DNA of 42,208 nucleotides from NCBI GenBank assembly GCA_949283535.1, contig CASDTC010000013.1, positions 1 through 42,208 on the forward strand, given 5' to 3'. Numbering within the stretch: position 1 is the first letter of the stretch; every line of letters starts with the position of its first letter. A program made the position numbers and the translations under genes. The notes under the pieces are model-generated. The model was not told where the DNA came from. It worked only from the letters and a program-made list of their open reading frames with translations, and searched no databases. The stretch is from an uncultured Pseudomonadota bacterium. Its GTDB lineage: Bacteria; Pseudomonadota; Alphaproteobacteria; Rs-D84. This document shows, in pieces, positions 13,103-42,208 of this stretch.

Positions 13103-13131
13103 ATAAAAATAAATTATAATAACATATCTGC

Positions 13132-13183
13132 CGACAAAAAATTTGCTCATGTATGTTTAATACACTACGCAAATTTTTTGTCG
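13132..13183. terminator. Long perfect hairpin between efp and the aldolase gene
   Basis: A perfect 15-bp inverted repeat, 13132-13146 with 13169-13183, encloses 22 bases. Lying between convergent genes and including A and T runs, it most likely acts as a bidirectional terminator, although it is longer than the other terminators here. Confidence 0.6.
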
Positions 13184-13270
13184 ACATCTATATCATTCTA
13201 ATTTATTTTGATAGTGTGTTACGCTTCGCGCCCGCCAATCTTTGCATCTACACCGTTCTAATTTATTTTA
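13184..13270. repeat. Two degenerate 26-bp direct repeats
   Basis: The stretch ending in TTCTAATTTATTTT occurs at about 13184-13209 and again at about 13245-13270, 22 of 26 positions alike. The spacer contains ACGCTTCGCG, reminiscent of the palindromic repeats near 31.7 kb. No gene is seen in this interval. Confidence 0.5.
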
Positions 13271-24287: not shown

Positions 24288-26780
24288 GTGAAAAAAGACC
24301 TGAAAATTTCAACATTGGCAATTATTTGTGTTTTGTGTACGGCTGTATCTGGTGCGTACGCGGCGTCATCTGTTCGCAGTTTGGGGGGCAGTGGTACATA
24401 TTCCAGTGTGTCCAGTGCTGCATCTGCGGGCGATGGCGGAAGTGCGTCTGTGCGTGGTGGTTCGTTGCGTGTAACACCGTCTGCGGGGCAGTCGGGGGCC
24501 AGTACAACAATTGATGCAGGAACGACAACAACGGGGCGTGTTGCGACATCGCCGCGTTTGTCAATTGGGCATTATTTGGGTGGTGCAACATCTGTCAGTG
24601 GGGGCAGTTCGTTGCGTCCGCAAACACCAGGCAGTGGTTCTTCGTCGGGCGGTTCGTCTGGTGGCGGTATCAGTGATGGCGATTTGACGGGCTTGCGTGA
24701 TCAGATTGATCAGTTGGGGCGTGATGTTGAAGATTTGCGTACTGCGGATGATAATATTAATGATGCGTTGTCGGACAAACAGGATACGCTGTACCCGGGT
24801 GAAGATGGTTTTATTATAATTGATGACAATACGAATGAAATCTTTGTTGATGTCGATGCGCTGGAACAAGAATTAGAAATGATTGCGGGCAAGGATGGTC
24901 GCGAAGTTGAATTGGGTTCTGATGATACGGATTTGTTGTGGCGCTATGTCGGCGAAAATGATTGGAATATTTTGATTTCCAAGGCGGAAATTACCGGACC
25001 CCAGGGACCCCAAGGTGAAAAGGGTGAGCCGGGTGATGCGGCAAATCTGGATGCGTATTCCACGACCGAGCAAATGAATCAGGCGATTGGAAATGCAATT
25101 GCTGCGCTGGCGGATGTTTATGCGACCAAGGATGATTTAACCCGTGGTTTGGCAGCCAAGGCAAATGCAGCCGATGTTTACACCAAGGCAGAGGTTTATA
25201 ACAAGACAGAAGTTGATGAAAAAGTTGCCGATATTGTTGCAGGCGATATGGACGAAGCGCTGGCGAACAAGGCAGATAAAACATATGTTGATGAACAATT
25301 GGCGACCAAGGCTGACAAGACAGAATTGGCGAACAAGGCAGACGCCAGTGCTGTTTCAGCATTAGAGACCGAAGTTGGTGAAATTAATGATTTGGCAAGT
25401 GATGCTGCATTGGCGGCGGCAAATGCAATCAGTGGTCTGGATGCCAAAGAAAATATTTCAAATAAAACGCAAACTGTAACAAACAGCGCAACGGAATATC
25501 CGTCTGGTGCGGCGGTGACAACGGCATTGGCGGATAAAGCGGATAAATCCGAATTGGCGAATTATGCAACGAATGATTCTGTTGATACAAAATTAGAAAA
25601 TTACTATACGATTTCAGAAGTTGATGACAAGGTTGCAGATGTTGTTGCCGGTGATATGGGCGAAGCGTTGATTGGTAAAGAAGATAAATCGAATAAAATA
25701 CAGACGATTGACGCATCTTCAACAGCGGATCAGTATCCGTCGGCAGCTGCTGTTTATGGTGCTTTGGAACAAAAGGCAGATACCACGACTGTTGAGCAGA
25801 TTGAACAAAATGTTACCAATGTAACGGAACAGGTTACAAATTTAGGTGATACGATTAATAATGCGGATACCGGTCTGAAAAAGCAAGTCGAAGATGCTGT
25901 AAATACTGCAAATGCTGCGCAACAGGCGGTCGCCGGCAAGCAAGATGCATTGGGTTTCACACCAGAAGATGCGGCGAACAAGAGTCAGACGGTTGTTGAT
26001 GACGAAACAAAATATCCATCGTCTGCGGCGGTTTATGGTGAATTAGAAACCAAGGCAAATGTATCTGATTTGGCGAATTATGCGACGACGGAAACGGTAA
26101 ATCAGATTGAACAAAATGTTACCAATGTAACGGAACAGGTTACAAATTTAGGCGATACAATTAATAACGAAGACACCGGTCTGAAAAAGCAGGTTGAAGA
26201 TGCGGTTTCTGCTGCTGAAGAAGCCAAGACCAATGCGGATGCGGCAAAGACAACCGCGGATGAAGCCAAGGCAGGTTTGGATGCCAAAGAAGATAAATCG
26301 AACAAGGCGACATCCATTACTGCTGAAAATCAATCATCTGGAACGGCGTATCCAACAGTTGGTGCAATTACGCAATGGACAAACACAAAAATAAATGAAT
26401 TGTCTGAAACAGGATTACCGGTTAATCCAGATAATATTGGTGCCGGTTCAATTGATACAGAAAAATTGGCTGATGGTGCGGTGACAACGCCGAAAATTGC
26501 AGACAATGCGGTTACCGAAGATAAACTGAGTGATGAATTAAATGCGGAAATTGATGGCAAAGAAGATAAAGCAAATCTGAAAGCGTTGGCATATAAAGAT
26601 CAAATCACAAATGCTGATGTTGCAGATGATGCGGCGATTGAAAAATCAAAACTGGCGTTGGATGTACAAACAGCGTTGGATAATGCGGCGGATGCGGTCA
26701 GTATGTCTGGGGCAACACCGAACAGTGTGCTGGGGGCGGATGATACAGGTAACCCAGTGTGGTATGAAATTGCAATGTAA
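24288..26780 (+). CDS. Exported repetitive fibre-like protein 1 (830 aa)
   Basis: Starts with GTG. After a signal peptide (cleavage near AYA, about residue 25) comes a Gly/Ser/Thr-rich stretch (to about 130), a short coiled-coil segment, a small collagen-like run (GPQGPQGEKGEPG), and then many repeats with KADK, TKAEVY and YPSxAAVyxAL patterns typical of phage tail-fibre and trimeric stalk regions. Two copies of a module starting EQIEQNVTNVTEQV are 102 residues apart. It ends in a DGxxTxxKIA region and GNPVWYEIAM. No membrane anchor, sortase signal or barrel is seen. A trimeric surface fibre or adhesin is inferred. It is the first gene of a three-gene run. Confidence 0.75.
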   Translation: MKKDLKISTLAIICVLCTAVSGAYAASSVRSLGGSGTYSSVSSAASAGDGGSASVRGGSLRVTPSAGQSGASTTIDAGTTTTGRVATSPRLSIGHYLGGATSVSGGSSLRPQTPGSGSSSGGSSGGGISDGDLTGLRDQIDQLGRDVEDLRTADDNINDALSDKQDTLYPGEDGFIIIDDNTNEIFVDVDALEQELEMIAGKDGREVELGSDDTDLLWRYVGENDWNILISKAEITGPQGPQGEKGEPGDAANLDAYSTTEQMNQAIGNAIAALADVYATKDDLTRGLAAKANAADVYTKAEVYNKTEVDEKVADIVAGDMDEALANKADKTYVDEQLATKADKTELANKADASAVSALETEVGEINDLASDAALAAANAISGLDAKENISNKTQTVTNSATEYPSGAAVTTALADKADKSELANYATNDSVDTKLENYYTISEVDDKVADVVAGDMGEALIGKEDKSNKIQTIDASSTADQYPSAAAVYGALEQKADTTTVEQIEQNVTNVTEQVTNLGDTINNADTGLKKQVEDAVNTANAAQQAVAGKQDALGFTPEDAANKSQTVVDDETKYPSSAAVYGELETKANVSDLANYATTETVNQIEQNVTNVTEQVTNLGDTINNEDTGLKKQVEDAVSAAEEAKTNADAAKTTADEAKAGLDAKEDKSNKATSITAENQSSGTAYPTVGAITQWTNTKINELSETGLPVNPDNIGAGSIDTEKLADGAVTTPKIADNAVTEDKLSDELNAEIDGKEDKANLKALAYKDQITNADVADDAAIEKSKLALDVQTALDNAADAVSMSGATPNSVLGADDTGNPVWYEIAM
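25797..26206 (+). repeat. Direct repeat of about 104 bp inside fibre gene 1
   Basis: The stretches 25797-25900 and 26103-26206 are nearly identical and 306 bp (102 codons) apart, in frame. Confidence 0.85.
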
Positions 26781-28360
26781 AGGAATATAACAAATGAAAA
26801 AAAGAAATATTGTTTTTTCTGGGTTTATGGCAGCAATTTTGTTCAGTGCGGGTGCTGCGAATGCGGCAACGGCGCGTATCGCCAGCCAGCAGTATGTTGA
26901 TAACAAAGAAACATCAATTCTGGAAACAGTCAGCAATACATATGAAACCAAAGAAAATGTTCAAAATCTGACGACCCAGGTTACGCAGTTGGGTGATACG
27001 ATTAATAATGCTGAAACAGGATTGGCAACAACGGTTGACAGTTTGACCGAAACGGTTGGGCAATTGGATTCAGAAATGGATTCTAAATTGGACAGCGCGA
27101 CCGCAGATGGCAAGTATGAGGTTTTAACCAACAAGGCAACAGAAATTAATGCTGGAAATCAGTCTTCGGCAACGGTGTATCCATCGGTTGGTGCAATTAC
27201 CCAGTGGACTAATACAAAGATAAGTGAATTGTCCGAAACGGGATTGCCGGTAAATCCGGATAACATTGGCGCCGGTTCAATTAACACAGAAAAATTGGCT
27301 GATGGTGCGGTATCCACGGATAAAATCGCAAATGATGCCGTAACATCGGATAAAATTGCGGATGATGCGGTTGGTTCTGAACATATCCAGACGGGCGCGG
27401 TTGGAACCGATGAAATTGCCGATGGCGCGGTTGGTAATGCAGATTTGGCGGCAGATTCCGTAACAACAGATAAAATCAAAGATGGTACAATTTCATCGGC
27501 TGATTTGGATACGGCATTAAATGCCGAAATTGATGGCAAGGAAGATAAAACAAATAAAGTAACCGCCATTACGGGCAGTGAAGGCGAAGAAGCAAATAGG
27601 GTATATCCAACTGTTGGTGCGGTTACTGCATGGACGCAACAGCAAATTGAAAATGTTGAATTTGATCCGTCTGAATTGGCACCGGGGTCAATAAATGGTG
27701 ATGCAATCCAAGATGGCACAATTACATCAGACCAGATTGCCGATGGTACGGTTGGCACGGGTGATATCGCCGATGGTGCAATCACGGGCGATAAATTGGA
27801 TGAAACATTGGCGGGGCAAATTGCCGATATCGATGGGAAACAAGACATTGCAATGGGTGTCGGTCACGAAAATCATATCGTGACAACTGATGCGTCTGGT
27901 AATATTACATCCGCTGCGACAATTGGTCAGGACAAGGTTACAGGTTTGACCACAGCGTTGGAGGGCAAGGCGTCAATTGAGGATATTCCAACAACTGTTG
28001 CGGAATTAACCGATGCATCAAATTATGCAACAACGACGGCATTGACGTCTGGATTGGCGGGCAAAGAAGATGCAGGGAATAAAACAAATGTTATTAATGA
28101 TGGCAATGAAGCATCTGATACGCAGTTCCCGACCGTTGGTGCGATGACATCATGGGTATCGTCAGAAATATCGAATTTAAGTGAATTGCCTGTTAACCCT
28201 GGGTTGATTGAAGATGGTACATTGGCGGGGTCTAAATTGCAAAACGGTGCGGTAACCAGTGAAAAAATTGCTGATGGTGCGGTGACAACGCCGAAAATTG
28301 CAGACAATGCGGTTACCGAAGATAAACTGAGTGACGAATTAAATGCGGAAATTGATGGCA
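26462..28360 (+). repeat. Shared near-identical segment of fibre genes 1 and 2
   Basis: About 100 bp at 26462-26560 recur almost unchanged at 28262-28360, covering the LADGAVTTPKIADNAV part to AEIDGK. A related longer module is shared near 26319 and 27145. The entry spans both copies; only the named segments are repeated. Confidence 0.8.
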
Positions 28361-28530
28361 AGGCAAATGCCGCAGATGTTTATACCAAATTGGAAACAGA
28401 CGGCAAAATTGTTGAATTGGCGGTACCGCAGCCAGACGCAGATTGTCAGGCAGAATCAGGATTGTGTGTATTGTCGGTTACAACAGGCGGTGATTTAGCA
28501 TGGGTAAATGTTACTGCCCCGGCAGAATAA
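26794..28530 (+). CDS. Exported repetitive fibre-like protein 2 (578 aa)
   Basis: Begins 13 bases after fibre 1 with AAAGGAA as ribosome binding site. A signal peptide ending NAA is followed by ARIASQQYVD, a motif shared with fibres 3 and 4, then a coiled-coil-like part, and a long run of short repeats of the form xIADGAVTxDKI (about residues 165-260, 310-350 and 450-500), known from tail-fibre proteins. Segments of about 100 bp are nearly identical in DNA to fibre 1. It ends GGDLAWVNVTAPAE, similar in layout to the ends of fibres 1 and 3. Two Cys occur near the C-terminus. Function as a surface fibre is inferred. Confidence 0.75.
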   Translation: MKKRNIVFSGFMAAILFSAGAANAATARIASQQYVDNKETSILETVSNTYETKENVQNLTTQVTQLGDTINNAETGLATTVDSLTETVGQLDSEMDSKLDSATADGKYEVLTNKATEINAGNQSSATVYPSVGAITQWTNTKISELSETGLPVNPDNIGAGSINTEKLADGAVSTDKIANDAVTSDKIADDAVGSEHIQTGAVGTDEIADGAVGNADLAADSVTTDKIKDGTISSADLDTALNAEIDGKEDKTNKVTAITGSEGEEANRVYPTVGAVTAWTQQQIENVEFDPSELAPGSINGDAIQDGTITSDQIADGTVGTGDIADGAITGDKLDETLAGQIADIDGKQDIAMGVGHENHIVTTDASGNITSAATIGQDKVTGLTTALEGKASIEDIPTTVAELTDASNYATTTALTSGLAGKEDAGNKTNVINDGNEASDTQFPTVGAMTSWVSSEISNLSELPVNPGLIEDGTLAGSKLQNGAVTSEKIADGAVTTPKIADNAVTEDKLSDELNAEIDGKANAADVYTKLETDGKIVELAVPQPDADCQAESGLCVLSVTTGGDLAWVNVTAPAE

Positions 28531-28584
28531 GATAATAATCGGAATTTTAGAAAAAAATAAAAAAAAGAAAGAAAGGAAGGAAAA

Positions 28585-30015
28585 ATGAAAAAATTAACAG
28601 CAGGTATTTTTGCAACATTATTGGCGGTTGTATCAACAGGCGCCGCAAACGCGAAAATTGCATCACAAGCATATGTTGATGAGAAAGATGCGGAAAGGGT
28701 TGCTGTTCAACAAGAGACCAATAATGGAATCTTGACGACAAGTGCAACAGGTGCCGTTCAGGTTTCTAGTTCAATCCCACAAGCCCGTGTTGATGGCTTG
28801 GATACTGCATTAGCGGGCAAGGCAGATAAAGCAACTACATTGGAGGGATATGGTATTACAGATGGCGCCACAAAAACGGATTTGACATCTGGCTTGGCTG
28901 GTAAAGTTGATAATGAAGATATTGCAGATATGCAGGTAACGACAAATTTAACAACAACATCAGGATGGGGAACAGATAAAGCATCAGAAACCAAATATCC
29001 ATCAAATGCGGCGGTTGATGCAGCAATTAAAACGGCAACATCTGGATTACCCACAAGTGGTAAAATCACAGAAATAGAAGGCGATATTACAACCATTGAA
29101 GGTAATATCACAGATATCCAAGGTGATGTAACACAATTGCAAACGAATGTTTCGGCGAAACAAGATAAAAATATGGGGGCAGGGGCAGCAAACCATATCG
29201 TAACAACGGATGACAGTGGTAATATTACATCCAGTGCGACAATTACGCAAGCGCAGGTTTCTGGTTTGGGTTCTGCATTGGCGGGCAAGGCAGATGCAGC
29301 GGATTTGGATGCGAAATTAGATGCAAATGAGGCAATTACTGCGGGGACAGGTACAAAAATTACATACGATGCCAAAGGTTTGGTAACGGGCAGCTCTAAT
29401 TTAACAGCAGCGGATATCCCAGCGTTGACAACAGATAAAATTACTGGATTGGATACAGAATTGGATTCAAAGGCATCACAAACGGATTTAACCGCATTAA
29501 CAGATCGTGTTACAACCGCAGAAGGGGATATTGACGCATTACAGGCACCAAAAGCCCAGGTTGCCGAGGGTGTAACGGGTCCTGTTTCTGGTGGTACAGT
29601 ATATACTGCAATTGAAAATGTTACAGGTAATGTAGGTACTGTAACCGGTCGTGTAGATACATTAGAAGGTGAAATGGATACGGCACAATCTGATATTGCA
29701 GAATTACAGACAGGTAAGCAGAATAAATTAACAGGTCCAGTTGGTAGTGCAACCCAGCCAGTGTATGTTAATGCAGAAGGTAATGTAGTTGCAGGAACCG
29801 CATATGGTTCATTGGCGACCAAAAATCAGGTTGCAAATGCGGATGTTGCAGATAATGCCGCAATCGCGCAAAGCAAGATTGCAAACTTGGTAACTGATTT
29901 GGCGGCAAAAATTACGGCGCCAGCAACATCTGAAACCGGTGACACTGGTACATGGGTTTTGACATATGACGGAACCAATTTCCAATGGGAAGATATTGCC
30001 CGTGCAGGTGAATAA
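28585..30015 (+). CDS. Exported repetitive fibre-like protein 3 (476 aa)
   Basis: A strong AGGAAGG ribosome binding site precedes the start. The signal peptide ends GAANA and is followed by KIASQAYVDEKDAERV, the shared N-terminal motif. The rest is made of coiled-coil heptad-like stretches (ITEIEGDITTIEGNITDIQGDV), ALAGKADxxxL repeats and a terminal NADVADNAAIAQSKI part, ending NFQWEDIARAGE. No anchor is visible. It follows fibre 2 by 54 bases and probably shares its transcript. The role as a surface or secreted fibre is inferred from repeat type only. Confidence 0.75.
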   Translation: MKKLTAGIFATLLAVVSTGAANAKIASQAYVDEKDAERVAVQQETNNGILTTSATGAVQVSSSIPQARVDGLDTALAGKADKATTLEGYGITDGATKTDLTSGLAGKVDNEDIADMQVTTNLTTTSGWGTDKASETKYPSNAAVDAAIKTATSGLPTSGKITEIEGDITTIEGNITDIQGDVTQLQTNVSAKQDKNMGAGAANHIVTTDDSGNITSSATITQAQVSGLGSALAGKADAADLDAKLDANEAITAGTGTKITYDAKGLVTGSSNLTAADIPALTTDKITGLDTELDSKASQTDLTALTDRVTTAEGDIDALQAPKAQVAEGVTGPVSGGTVYTAIENVTGNVGTVTGRVDTLEGEMDTAQSDIAELQTGKQNKLTGPVGSATQPVYVNAEGNVVAGTAYGSLATKNQVANADVADNAAIAQSKIANLVTDLAAKITAPATSETGDTGTWVLTYDGTNFQWEDIARAGE

Positions 30016-30032
30016 TCTGTGATAAAATAATA

Positions 30033-30060
30033 TGTGCGGTGTTAAAATGTGCACCGCACA
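30033..30060. other. Hairpin after fibre gene 3
   Basis: TGTGCGGTG and CACCGCACA form a perfect 9-bp stem with a 10-base loop. There is no T-run on the plus strand but an A-run follows, so it would work as an intrinsic terminator only on the minus strand; it may still stabilise the 3' end. Confidence 0.5.
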
Positions 30061-30131
30061 CAGGTAAAAAAAAACAGATTGCGATAAACGGACAGTGGAA
30101 CGAAACAGTTTTTTTTAGGTAGAATACGGAT

Positions 30132-31585
30132 ATGATAAAGTCAAAGGGCATTTTCGCAGTTTCATTTATAGCTATGATGGTGGTGGGGGGCGCATATGCA
30201 AATATTGCATCCCAGGAAATGCCAGCACCGCCGTAAAAGTTGCCACCGCCGGGACCGCGGTGGGGGATGCGACGCATCCGGTCTATGTTAATTCCAGTGG
30301 CGTTGCAACAAGAATAGACAAGGTTGCCGCCGCAGCAAGCGCGGATACTGCAACCAGTGCAACCAAGGCAACGCAAGATGGCAATGGGGCAAATATTGCC
30401 AATACATATGCCAAAAAGACCGAATTGCCAACGGTGAATAATGCCACGCTGACCATTCAGAAAAATGGCGCAACAGTTGATACATTTACGGCAAATGCGT
30501 CAGCAAACAAGACGATTAATATTACTGTGCCGACCACAACCAGTGGATTAACAAATGACAGTGGTTTTATTACCGCTGATGATTTGCCAAAAGATTATAC
30601 TTTGCCGGTTGCAACGACATCTGCGTTGGGTGGTGTGAAATCCGGTGGTAATATTACGGTCAGTTCAACTGGTGCCGTTACCGTGAACAGTGCCACCAAG
30701 GCGACCCAGGACGCGTCAGGAAATGTGATTACAACCACATATGCGACAAAATCTGAATTAACGAACGGTTTGTCCGGGAAACAGGCGACTTTGTCGGGTG
30801 CGCAATTGAATGCGGTGAATTCTGGGATTACGTCGACCAAGGTATCAACCTATGACGGATACAATGCGAAAATAACCGCCGCACAAACAGCGGCAGAATC
30901 AGCACAAAGTGCCGCGACAGCTGCACAGAATGCTGCGAATGCCAAGGTTGCCACCGCGCAGGGTTCCGCTGCCGCGAACAAGGCCGTGATTACCAATTCG
31001 TCTGGTAATATCACAACGGGGACAATTGCATCAGGGATGATTGCGAATGATGCGGTTACCAGTGCGAAAATTGCAACAGGCGCGGTTGATGCGACTGCGT
31101 TGGCGTCGGGTGCGGTGACGTCTGCGAAAATTGCAGATGGCACGATTGTAAATGCAGATATTGCATCTAATGCGGCGATTGCTGCGTCAAAAATTTCGGG
31201 ATTGGCGACGGTTGCGACATCGGGATCTTATGATGATTTAACGGACAAGCCGACAATTCCAGCGGCGATAACGGTTGATTCTGCGTTAAGTTCAACTAGT
31301 ACAAATCCAGTTCAGAACAAGGTTGTTAATGCCGCATTGGCAGGTAAGTTAAGCACAACTGGGACAGCAGCCAAGGCAACAGCAGATGCAAAAGGTAATA
31401 ATATCGCCAATACTTATGCGACCAAGGCACAATTAACGGCGTTGGACAGCACATCGTCTGGTACGGGGGCAGTGGTTACAAATGTGTCCCAGACGGGTGG
31501 TAAAGTATCCGTGACCAAGGGAAATGTTAAAATCCCAGTGGGCAGTGCAAATGCAACAACATATGCCACAATTTGGGTTCAATAA
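30132..31585 (+). pseudogene. Exported fibre-like protein 4, frameshifted
   Basis: The ATG at 30132 opens a signal peptide (MIKSKGIFAVSFIAMMVVGG, then AYA) and NIASQ, the same motif as in fibres 2 and 3, but the frame then ends at a TAA at 30234-30236. Another frame, open from about 30209, reads NASTAVKVATAGTAVGD and continues to 31585 with tail-fibre-like repeats. One extra G at about 30215 would give SQGNASTAV and join the two, yielding about 485 residues. The -10 box TAGAAT at 30120-30125 lies 6 bases before the ATG, so the mRNA would be leaderless. As it stands only a 34-residue peptide is made from the first start; a GTG at 30260 would give an unexported product. Confidence 0.78.
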
Positions 31586-31650: not shown

Positions 31651-31730
31651 GTTTCTTGTCATTCTGGTGTGTGGGGGCAGGGCGACCGTGGCGATCCAGT
31701 CATAATAGAGTCGCGCATACGCGCGTGCAT

Positions 31731-31905
31731 TATTTACTGGATTGCTTCGCTATGCTCGCAATGACAAGTTAGTGATGTGGGGTATAATTGACTGGATTGC
31801 TTCGCTATGCTCGCAATGACAAGTTAGTGATGTGGGGCATAATTTACTGGATTGCTTCGCTGCGCCGCGCATGACAAGAGAGTGTGTGGGCGTGGTAATA
31901 TTTTC
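31731..31905. repeat. 55-bp tandem repeat, about three copies
   Basis: ACTGGATTGCTTCGCT begins at 31736, 31791 and 31846, exactly 55 bp apart. The first two copies are almost identical, including GCAATGACAAGTTAGTGATG; the third is diverged. Each unit contains ATTGC and GCAAT arms, as in the palindromic intergenic repeats seen in many bacterial genomes. Confidence 0.85.
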
Positions 31906-31925
31906 TTGAATTCTCTGACCACCCC

Positions 31926-31956
31926 GCCGCTGCGCGGCACCCCTCCAACGGAGGGG
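31926..31956. repeat. Two adjacent GC-rich palindromes
   Basis: GCCGC-TGC-GCGGC (31926-31938) and CCCCTCC-AAC-GGAGGGG (31940-31956) are perfect hairpins side by side. They look like a second palindromic repeat family rather than a terminator, as no T-run follows. Confidence 0.65.
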
Positions 31957-32047
31957 AACTGGGTGTGGTGCTTTTTATCATCGCGGGGGAACGCAGTGAC
32001 CGTGGCGATTCAGTGAATGCGATATGTGTCGCGTTCGCGACGACATT

Positions 32048-32150
32048 ATTTACTGGATTGTTTCGCTGCGCCGCGCATGACAAGTGTGTGGATTTTATGC
32101 CGCGGTCCGCAATGACAGATTGTGGATTGCGCCACGCATGACAATGGGAA
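32048..32150. repeat. Further degenerate palindromic repeats
   Basis: ACTGGATTGTTTCGCTGCGCC starts at 32052 as a fourth copy of the repeat at 31736, and shorter relics with GCAATGACA and GGATTGCG follow up to about 32145. Confidence 0.7.
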
Positions 32151-37347: not shown

Positions 37348-38346
37348 ATGGCACACCAGTTCTTTTTTAATCCATTTATACTGGACAATTTGCCAGCCCC
37401 TGCGATTGGATTCGATGTTGTCCAAGATTTATCAGAACCGCGTTTGCGGATGTATATAACCAGTCGTGGTGTTAAAACATTTTTTGTTCGAAAACGGGTT
37501 CATGGTCGTGATCGGCGCATTATTATTGGCAATTATCCAGACGTTGATATAGAAACTGCGCGTGGCATGGTGCCAGAAATTCTGGCACGCGCAATGCAAA
37601 AGCCACCACAGCATCGTCGTAAAATAACATTTCAAAAATTTTTAAATATATATATGGCAAATCGCGTGCGGCGCAGTGGTTATTCGCGCGATAAATTGGA
37701 ACGCGCTGTACAGCGTCATTTATCACCATTGTTTGACAAGAATTTATCAGATATAAAATCTGAAGATATCGTTGCGGTGATTGCACAAATAAATGGTCAT
37801 GCAATTGCTGCCCGTATGCAAGAATTTTTACAAAGTGTTTTTAAGTATGCAATTGAAACAGGGTATATAAAATCTAATCCTGTTGCGGGGCTGCCTAAAA
37901 TACAACAGATGCGGCGTGTTCGACCATTAAATAAATCAGGATTTCAACGACTGATTCGTGCAATCAAATGTGATACATCACCAGTATTGCAGGCGGCGTT
38001 TTTAATGTTGGTGTACGGTTTTGCACCAAAATCCCAAGTGTTTTCAATGCAATGGCGGGATTTGGATTTCAACCATTATACATGGTGCGACAGGCCTTTG
38101 TCTGATGCGGCAGTGGTATTATTGCAAGATTTACCGCAAAACGGTCGTTGGGTCTTTCCTGGCCGTGGCCGTGGACATTTGGCAGACCCGCGTGTCGCAT
38201 GGCGGCGCGTGGCGGCAGCAGCAGGTATTCCAAATCTGACGATGGACGATGTGTATAAATTCTTGATGCGCCAAGTTGTCTGGACATCAGACAGGGAAGA
38301 ATTCCGCACAAATATGAATAATTTGTTGATAGAGATGATGTCATAA
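37348..38346 (+). CDS. Integrase-like protein lacking catalytic residues
   Basis: A 332-residue relative of P4-type tyrosine recombinases: an N-terminal arm-binding part (RLRMYITSRGVKTFFVRKRVHGRDRRIIIGNYPDVDIETAR), a SAM-like core-binding domain (about 90-185), and the start of a catalytic domain. The usual TGxRxxE is YGFAPKSQ, the HxLRxT box is DDVYKFLM, and the protein stops without the LGH box or the nucleophilic Tyr. It should bind DNA but not recombine it. AAGGAG precedes the start. It could be a domesticated DNA-binding protein or a decayed integrase, although the reading frame is intact. Confidence 0.72.
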   Translation: MAHQFFFNPFILDNLPAPAIGFDVVQDLSEPRLRMYITSRGVKTFFVRKRVHGRDRRIIIGNYPDVDIETARGMVPEILARAMQKPPQHRRKITFQKFLNIYMANRVRRSGYSRDKLERAVQRHLSPLFDKNLSDIKSEDIVAVIAQINGHAIAARMQEFLQSVFKYAIETGYIKSNPVAGLPKIQQMRRVRPLNKSGFQRLIRAIKCDTSPVLQAAFLMLVYGFAPKSQVFSMQWRDLDFNHYTWCDRPLSDAAVVLLQDLPQNGRWVFPGRGRGHLADPRVAWRRVAAAAGIPNLTMDDVYKFLMRQVVWTSDREEFRTNMNNLLIEMMS

Positions 38347-40105: not shown

Positions 40106-40132
40106 AAAACACGGGGCGAATGCCCCGTGTTT
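40106..40132. terminator. Bidirectional terminator between fabF and the BspA-like gene
   Basis: An 11-bp stem (40107-40117 with 40122-40132) with a 4-base loop, A-run before and T-run after. Confidence 0.9.
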
Positions 40133-42021
40133 TATTTCCAATTATCTGGTATTTGATCATAGTCATCTAAATGCCTTGAACTCGCATATGTATTCATATC
40201 ATTGATAACATCGGGCCATATTTCATACAGATATTGTCCATTTATTCGTGCCGACGGCCCGGTTAATGAATAGCAAAAAGCAAATGTTTGGTTAAACATA
40301 TCGTCTGCTGCCGGTCCCGATATGCCGGCAAACAGGTTTTCCGGAATACTTTGTAATTGGTCGCACATTCTAAATGTGCTGTCAAACATCCTTTCTGCTG
40401 GGGCGCCCTGTACCCCCGCGAATAAATCGGCGGGGATTTCTGTTAGTGCCGTGTTGTTAAATGTATAGCTAAACATCCTCTCTGCCGGGGTACCTTCTAT
40501 CGTGGTCAGGTTGGCACAATTGTTAAATGTACTACTAAACATGCCCATCGCGCCATCACCGTTTAATTCACCAAACAAATTTGCGGGGACACTGGTTATA
40601 TCGGTATTGCTAAATGTACTGCTAAACATATAATCTGCCGGCGCACCACGGATGCCGGCAAATAAATTCGCAGGAACACTGCTTATTGCGGTATTGCTAA
40701 ATGTACTGCTAAACATATAATCTGCCGGCGCACCACGGATGCCGGCAAATAAATTCGCAGGAACACTGCTTATTGCGGTATTGTAAAATGTACTGCTAAA
40801 CATCCTCTCTGCTGGGGCGCCTTGTATCCCTGCAAATAAATCGGCTGGAATTTCTGTTAGTTTGGTGCTGTAAAATGTATAGTCAAACATACTCTCTGCT
40901 GGGGCGCCACGGATTCCCGCGAATAAATCTGCGGGGATTTCTGTTAATGACGAGTCGAAAAATGTACGGTAAAACATATTATATGCCGGGGTTATTGTAC
41001 CGCTGAACAATGGTCCATCAGCCGTGGTCAGGTTTTTGCAATTATAAAATGTCCGCTCAAACATACTCGGTGCGCCATCACCGTTTAATGTACCAAACAA
41101 AGTCAATGTTCCACTGAACAATGGACCTTCTATCGTGGTCAGGTTTGCACAATCGCTAAATGTACTGCTAAACATACCCATCGCGCCATCACCGGTCAGA
41201 TTGCCAAACAAATATGCTGGTACTTCTGTTATTTGGGTACTCATAAAAGTACCGATAAACATATACTCTGCTGGTGCGCCATGTATACCATCAAATAAAT
41301 CCGCGGGGATTTCCGTTATTGGCGCAAGTGCAAATGCGCCATAAAAATTCGGGTTGGATCCGTCATCCATTGTTGGGAACACACGACCCAGCCCACCAGA
41401 TATCTTGGCAACATTGGTCGCCATAAAAGACCCACTAATCATATCAGTCAATGCAAATGCTGGTACCAAACCAGCACCGGTATCTGGATCTATGACTGCA
41501 TCGCTGTAATCTGTTGCGCGACCGGTCAGGTTTATTTCGTATTCACCGGATGCAGTATATTTATGGGAATATGTTGTTGCGCCAACCGGTTTGTCTGCAA
41601 TAACATCACGCTTGCCATCGCCCCAATCAATTATAAAATTACCCGCTGCACCAATTATCATACTAAAACTGGATGTATCCGGTGTTGTCGTTATTGTAAA
41701 TGTTGGCGCTTTGACCAATGTATCAATCGCCGTATTTGTGGCAATTGTATCCGCCGCCGCCAGTGTCGCGTATTCGCCATTACCATAATCTGTGGTCTGT
41801 TCATCATTTAAAAATTCATTTGCGATATCAACAACGGTCAGCAGGTATTTCATATTCGCCGCAACGCGCGGGTTGGTTAATTCTGGGCTGTATGGTAAAT
41901 CAATGCCCCAGCGGGTGTTCAGATATTGGTGAATATATTCCACATTTACCATTTCTGCACCGCGTGCCATTGGTAAAAACATAAACATTACAAATAAAAC
42001 TGATAATATTTTACGAAACAT
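40132..42021 (-). CDS. Exported surface protein with PKD-like domain and BspA-type repeats
   Basis: A 629-residue protein from the ATG at 42021 (GGGGGAC upstream). A signal peptide ends near ARGA; a region of about 100 residues follows, then a PKD-like beta domain (FIIDWGDGKRDV to YSHKYTASGEYEINLTG), then a chain of about 29-residue repeats of the form ITxIPAxLFAGIxGAPAexMFsxTFxNT, close to BspA/DUF285-type leucine-rich repeats found in surface proteins. The gene order of units is irregular and one unit is shortened (TTIEGTPAERMF). The end, LDDYDQIPDNWK, shows no anchor. A surface or adhesive role is inferred from the repeat type. The 101-base inverted-repeat region lies 18 bases upstream of the start. 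Confidence 0.78.
   Translation of the reverse strand: MFRKILSVLFVMFMFLPMARGAEMVNVEYIHQYLNTRWGIDLPYSPELTNPRVAANMKYLLTVVDIANEFLNDEQTTDYGNGEYATLAAADTIATNTAIDTLVKAPTFTITTTPDTSSFSMIIGAAGNFIIDWGDGKRDVIADKPVGATTYSHKYTASGEYEINLTGRATDYSDAVIDPDTGAGLVPAFALTDMISGSFMATNVAKISGGLGRVFPTMDDGSNPNFYGAFALAPITEIPADLFDGIHGAPAEYMFIGTFMSTQITEVPAYLFGNLTGDGAMGMFSSTFSDCANLTTIEGPLFSGTLTLFGTLNGDGAPSMFERTFYNCKNLTTADGPLFSGTITPAYNMFYRTFFDSSLTEIPADLFAGIRGAPAESMFDYTFYSTKLTEIPADLFAGIQGAPAERMFSSTFYNTAISSVPANLFAGIRGAPADYMFSSTFSNTAISSVPANLFAGIRGAPADYMFSSTFSNTDITSVPANLFGELNGDGAMGMFSSTFNNCANLTTIEGTPAERMFSYTFNNTALTEIPADLFAGVQGAPAERMFDSTFRMCDQLQSIPENLFAGISGPAADDMFNQTFAFCYSLTGPSARINGQYLYEIWPDVINDMNTYASSRHLDDYDQIPDNWK
40624..40797 (-). 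repeat. Two adjacent, almost identical 87-bp units in the BspA-like gene
   Basis: The unit starting at 40624 recurs at 40711, exactly 87 bp (29 codons) later, with near-perfect identity, whereas other units differ. This points to recent duplication within the array. Confidence 0.88.
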
Positions 42022-42039
42022 CTGTCCCCCCATGATGAT

Positions 42040-42140
42040 AATAAACCACCGTTTAAATTCGGCAAAAAACCAGATTAAAAATTCGCGGGAATTGGGGATT
42101 TTTATAAATAAAAATTGCCGAATTTAAACGGTGGTTTATT
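42040..42140. repeat. Perfect 26-bp inverted repeat with 49-bp spacer
   Basis: 42040-42065 and 42115-42140 are exact reverse complements; both contain CCACCGTTTAAATTCGG. The spacer is AT-rich with TATAAA-like stretches on both strands. It could be a long RNA hairpin in the leader of the BspA-like gene, a miniature mobile element, or an invertible segment. Confidence 0.92.
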
Positions 42141-42152
42141 TTCGGCATATGT

Positions 42153-42180
42153 TTTATATTAATTCTATTGGTTTGCACAA
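42153..42180 (-). promoter_or_regulatory. Candidate promoter of the BspA-like gene
   Basis: On the minus strand TTGTGC (42180-42175) and TATAAA (42158-42153) are 16 bases apart. A transcript from here would carry the whole inverted repeat in its leader. Confidence 0.45.
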
Positions 42181-42208
42181 AATCTTGCAAGAGAAAAATC
42201 ATATATGG

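Follow-up and report, generated by a model that had tools for sequence, protein, structure and literature searches.

A very likely inversion switch ahead of a surface-protein gene, and its genus-wide family, in gut Alphaproteobacteria

What does a perfect inverted repeat do when it stands directly ahead of a surface-protein gene in a small-genome gut bacterium? The stretch of DNA analysed here (the window) is one entire contig of 42,208 bp (G000:C13) from an assembly of 0.83 Mb in 23 contigs, and the repeat lies at its end. A preliminary description had reported arms of 26 bp around a 49-bp spacer, and we found the arms (42040-42065 and 42115-42140) to match at 26 of 26 positions, with a match that stretches to 34 nt at 91% identity. 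By a simple calculation, the chance of a 26-bp perfect pair at most 100 bp apart in 42 kb is about 1e-9 and negligible. The reported distance of 18 bases between arm and gene start was also borne out, the likely ATG being at 42021 and its GGGGGGA at 42031-42025. The label of BspA-like product fared less well: the protein matches no Pfam family at cut-off and finds loose support in a sub-threshold match to the PARCEL/Liste_lipo_26 surface repeats. What the earlier account had missed is that the promoter-side arm and its outer bases (42116-42147) form a near-palindrome by themselves, with an asymmetric CACC centre and a predicted leader hairpin of -12.0 kcal/mol (Table 1). Elsewhere in the window, positions 13103-13212 hold a second inverted repeat, with 44-nt arms at 84% and a 22-nt loop, of a sequence unrelated to the switch.

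Table 1. Positions of the switch features in the window and of the candidate invertase in the same genome
Feature	Position	Strand	Details
Surface-protein gene	40132..42021	(-)	629 aa; signal peptide MFRKILSVLFVMFMFLPMARGA; PARCEL-like repeats below cut-off; putative switch target
Shine-Dalgarno of surface gene	42025..42031	(-)	GGGGGGA; outside the element
Gene-side recombination site	42040..42065	(+)	26-bp arm; core AC at 42048-42049
Invertible spacer	42066..42114	(.)	49 bp; without conserved start codon in the window copy
Promoter-side recombination site	42116..42147	(-)	32-bp near-palindrome TGCCGAAAATAAAC-CACC-GTTTAAATTCGGCA; arm 42115-42140 plus outer half; doubles as leader hairpin
Asymmetric core dinucleotide of promoter-side site	42131..42132	AC on (-)	putative crossover point, from left/right identity over 95 copies
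Fixed sigma-70-like promoter	42162..42190	(-)	TTGCAA-17-TAGAAT; outside the invertible segment
Mpi-family serine invertase	G000:C1:52782-53414		211 aa; adjoins rpsB; unlinked to the window element

The search for other arm copies that the preliminary description proposed returned further copies of both the arm and the full 138-bp stretch, elsewhere in this genome and in other genomes of the genus. A profile built from 29 copies and searched against 59 genomes of the genus matched 47 of them. The median number of element hits was 15 where the matching invertase was present versus 1 in the other genomes; because hits were counted on both strands of a palindrome, loci number about half of the hits. 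We estimate roughly 10-20 switches per genome in this bacterium. The named relatives reached through the invertase are gut alphaproteobacterial MAGs, including Candidatus Enterousia, and the compared genomes are mostly or all metagenome assemblies (MAGs as far as named). The window element is one member of a family that occurs in multiple copies across this genus of gut Alphaproteobacteria, relatives of Candidatus Enterousia.

Several contig ends carry the same leaders. The final 99 nt of the window (42110-42208) are the first 99 nt of C15 and of C19, and C12 and C17 end in a common 99 nt of a similar leader. The breaks at these four contigs look like assembler k-mer breaks at repeated leaders, and further switch copies are therefore probably missing from the assembly; this sharing of contig ends was kept out of the evidence for inversion. 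Dispersed repeats (GTGGCGATCCAGTCATAATA...ACTGGATTGCTTCGC and GACCACCCCGCCGCTGCGCGGCACCCCTCC) were seen at window 31673-32150 and at the ends of the same four contigs (C12, C15, C17 and C19), and they also lie beside several copies of the switch leader.

Evidence that the spacer inverts comes from orthologous loci, in which ON and OFF denote the orientations predicted to allow or to silence expression of the gene. A paralogue of the window gene with the same MFRKILSV start (G000:C2) has a counterpart in another genome (G081:C6) whose flank is 98.7% identical over 1,195 bp. Promoter and gene sides are collinear, and the segment between the sites matches on the opposite strand (94.9%). When the spacer was inverted in silico, the number of identical columns in the 283-column alignment rose from 195 to 219; the gain falls within the spacer, where the two loci then became nearly identical. 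A second orthologous locus is ON in three genomes (L057, L069 and L198) and OFF in two more (L123 and L174) and in a remnant (L041); at a third, L070 has the ON orientation, while L175 and L194 are OFF. Both flanks of these two loci align over hundreds of bases to more than 1 kb. Within the window's own genome, the spacers at C13 and C2 lie, relative to the paralogous genes, opposite to that of C4:70186. The flipped orthologous loci, whose orientation differs between species, support inversion of the spacer, and together with a co-occurring Mpi-family invertase they uphold the earlier suggestion of site-specific inversion ahead of a surface gene. We infer that both orientations coexist within one population.

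One copy has decayed and one paralogous gene is split. The remnant L041 (G000:C3:4789-4890) retains the gene side and the spacer in the OFF orientation; its promoter-side site is gone, with a terminator-like hairpin in its place that would lock the gene OFF. On C4, a paralogue of the window gene (L148, 4496-6174) is split into two overlapping ORFs, as if frameshifted within the repeats.

Most sister copies differ from that of the window in carrying a translation start. Their spacers hold a Shine-Dalgarno sequence, an ATG and codons such as MQKSGIFTKIK (MQKSGIFxKIK...), and the repeat that follows, the gene-side site, is itself coding (TAIINGGLFSA, ..NGGL(F/D)SA..) and leads into a signal peptide. 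For the window gene, Shine-Dalgarno and ATG both lie outside the segment, and no part of the ORF falls on the spacer. We examined 60 loci with a conserved ATG in both orientations for an ORF of at least 100 aa, with the +1 and +2 frames as control. Frame 0 gave such an ORF in 52 of the 60, the control frames in 0 and 3. The long ORF was present in exactly one orientation at 48 loci, of which 12 are ON and 36 OFF as assembled; four further loci had it in both orientations and eight in neither. The OFF copies retain an intact Shine-Dalgarno, ATG and frame, which is all that the ON state needs once they are inverted. Products of the sister loci tested matched no Pfam family above cut-off.

The promoter stays in place. 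A scan of the window found no promoter-like site in the spacer and one outside it, on the gene-distal side ((-) 42190-42162). Among 48 ATG-type loci, 38 have a promoter-like pair (at least 9 of 12 positions) on the side away from the gene, against 8.4 in shuffled sequences (maximum 15), often 58-59 bases ahead of the core. What changes with orientation is the sequence behind the promoter-side hairpin: a T-tract, defined as at least 5 T in 8, follows it in 45 of the 48 loci when OFF and in 0 of 48 when ON. The same asymmetry was found at loci whose genes have their own start, as in the window, and at the four loci of the window gene's family. In the window as assembled, the spacer puts the T-tract AATTTTTATTTA immediately behind the promoter-side hairpin when the gene is transcribed, so that the hairpin is followed by GCAATTTTTATTTA (7 T of 8), versus 0 and no T-tract after inversion; its assembled state is therefore predicted to be OFF. 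The scanner did not flag the proposed window terminator. Equilibrium RNA folding of window-type loci showed no orientation-dependent change in access to the Shine-Dalgarno, and the idea of an anti-Shine-Dalgarno in the window copy (CCCC or GGGG depending on orientation) was rejected since accessibility is equal both ways. The effect of orientation at the window is predicted to lie wholly in the hairpin and its T-tract, and we would expect termination in the OFF orientation.

Which enzyme might flip these segments? Over 95 copies, left and right sites are 95-97% identical in the core ACCG (offsets 0-3), falling to 61% at -1 and 71% at +4. The centre of the palindrome is an AC dinucleotide, inverted between left and right sites, which is presumably the crossover point and would suit a serine recombinase, with its 2-bp overlap, more than a tyrosine enzyme. 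Tyrosine recombinases usually need an overlap of 6-8 bp; since the left/right identity covers 4 bp, we judged such an enzyme unlikely, and the genome has a single PF00589 match. The window's integrase-like ORF (37348-38346, +) has no catalytic PF00589 match. It comprises arm-binding and central domains and lies downstream of large ORFs without Pfam families (24288-31585, +), with which it may form a prophage remnant.

The same genome encodes a serine recombinase that scores 308 bits against the cut-off of 272 for the NCBIfam equivalog of the Mpi master invertase (NF009949). It has the Resolvase N-terminal domain (PF00239, 3.6e-32) with a catalytic Ser near residue 9, and its RVST aligns with the RVST of a solved DNA-invertase chain, 4m6f. 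The gene is near rpsB in 13 of the 15 loci of named relatives. An orthologue of at least 75% identity is present in 24 genomes, and six or more element hits were found in 23 of these versus 5 of the 35 genomes without an orthologue (Fisher p = 2.6e-10, uncorrected for shared ancestry). The exception with an orthologue (G017) has its invertase gene at a contig edge and one element hit. Those with elements and no orthologue at 75% are G006, G023, G026, G031 and G069; G006 has a 68% homologue above the Mpi cut-off, and the homologue of G023 has stop codons. Co-occurrence and core pattern make this Mpi-family invertase the probable enzyme for the elements. Homologues about 62-68% identical in Bacteroidales and other gut phyla suggest a horizontal origin. 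Other Mpi-like serine recombinases, about 50% identical, occur in many of the genomes that lack this element family (for example G015:C6, G006:C2 and G014:C37), and these may have related inversion systems with different sites.

Other explanations of the repeat were considered. The preliminary description had proposed an invertible promoter. In such a switch, of the fimS or Bacteroides capsule type, a promoter on the spacer faces the gene in one orientation; the spacer is AT-rich, as this would have it, and Mpi of Bacteroides fragilis does invert promoters (PMC4747536). The proposal found no support, however: the scan gave no promoter-like site in the window spacer, the sigma-70-like promoter is fixed outside on the gene-distal side, sister loci likewise have theirs outside at a fixed distance (38 of 48), and most spacers are coding, with Shine-Dalgarno and ATG. 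An invertible promoter is thus quite unlikely, and the alternative raised at the same time, a hairpin leader behind a fixed promoter, describes the locus better and combines with the idea of inversion.

The tens of copies per genus, the pair of inverted hairpins with cores about 84 bp apart and the contig breaks at copies could also befit a non-autonomous mobile palindrome (of the MITE, REPIN or Rickettsia-palindromic-element type) that was transposed and came to lie near gene starts by chance. Against this stand the constant polarity of the copies, promoter on one side and gene on the other, the reading frame that continues through the repeat, the opposite orientation at collinear orthologous loci and the complementary cores. 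The RAYT transposase (PF01797) was found in 0 of 21 genomes, controls being positive, and a REPIN/RAYT system was rejected on this ground. Dispersed copies had been named beforehand as the mark of a transposable element, but the copies are themselves invertible loci of one system, and we consider chance transposition very improbable. Least credible to us, and highly improbable, is a static RNA leader (an attenuator or thermometer) common to paralogous genes, with orientation differences fixed long ago. The stable arm-arm stem in the leader and the conserved promoter-leader-gene layout would suit it, yet orientation differs between loci with 98.7% identical flanks, and the intact Shine-Dalgarno, ATG and frame of OFF copies would decay if inversion were not recurrent. 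Nor does the leader match an Rfam family at gathering score: the search gave chance matches of the long hairpin to microRNA-type families and one sRNA, all far below gathering scores, and a known RNA family was rejected.

The repeats, their copy number, the opposite orientation of orthologues, coding in one orientation, the promoter position, the T-tract asymmetry and the co-occurrence of the invertase can be read from the sequences themselves. The reading that we favour, and hold to be very likely, is that the element acts as a very small switch based on site-specific inversion. It would belong to a family of about 10-20 per genome under one unlinked Mpi-family serine invertase, with a fixed promoter and a terminator that sets OFF or ON. 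Transcripts would begin at the fixed promoter beyond the repeats and cross the promoter-side site, the spacer and the gene-side site before reaching the surface gene. In the OFF orientation, a T-tract comes right behind the promoter-side hairpin, and transcripts should end there; in the ON orientation, A-rich sequence would take the place of the T-tract and the gene would be read. At most sister loci inversion would, in addition, remove or supply the translation start, since the Shine-Dalgarno and start codon, along with the first signal-peptide residues, are on the spacer. The window copy, which lacks a spacer ATG because its gene has its own start, is predicted to work by the terminator alone and to be assembled OFF. 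It is also likely, with somewhat less confidence, that in these gut alphaproteobacteria of reduced genome one master invertase phase-varies the secreted-protein repertoire genome-wide by flipping cassettes of about 84 bp with Shine-Dalgarno, start codon and signal-peptide N-terminus, read in frame across the recombination site, and with a terminator in OFF, most loci being OFF at any time.

The closest parallel to the window copy is cwpV of Clostridioides difficile, a phase-variable surface protein with a fixed upstream promoter, inverted repeats in the leader and a proposed intrinsic terminator in the OFF orientation only; it has an unlinked recombinase, RecV, a single 195-bp spacer and 21-bp imperfect repeats, and its inversion region is stated to hold no part of the open reading frame (PMC2784873). 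The window copy likewise has its promoter outside and upstream, repeats in the leader, the gene's own start downstream and a predicted hairpin with T-tract in OFF only, and its putative enzyme is also unlinked to the elements. We infer that it works like the cwpV leader-terminator switch, assembled in the OFF state. Unlike cwpV, the present system has a 49-bp spacer, an Mpi-type serine invertase and many loci, and in most of its copies the segment that flips includes the Shine-Dalgarno, the start codon and codons of the signal peptide. The Mpi master invertase of B. fragilis acts on many distant loci that alter the surface, its described targets being mainly promoters, of capsule loci (PMC4747536, citing Coyne 2003). 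The invertase here is a serine invertase of the same NCBIfam equivalog and would have a similar multi-locus role at the surface; the promoters, in contrast, are fixed, and the leader or translation start flips, in an alphaproteobacterial host whose genome measures about 0.83 Mb. In intragenic invertons, reportedly described by Chanin et al. in 2024, inversion is said to alter the coding sequence inside a gene or at its edge, whereas in the present case many different secreted proteins obtain their start codon and N-terminus from a single repeated element. Within the literature available outside subscription, a search for inversion of a start codon or signal peptide gave only cwpV and related C. 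difficile switches.

The best-known cases of phase variation through inversion involve promoters that flip. In the present family the promoter does not move, and termination and the start of translation appear to be switched jointly by a very small cassette whose recombination site doubles as part of the signal peptide. The hosts are uncultured Alphaproteobacteria of the gut whose genomes do not exceed about 1 Mb; in them, a large set of secreted proteins, mostly silent and governed by a single invertase, would point to strong selection for a variable surface. Ordinary metagenomes could show for every locus whether it is ON or OFF.
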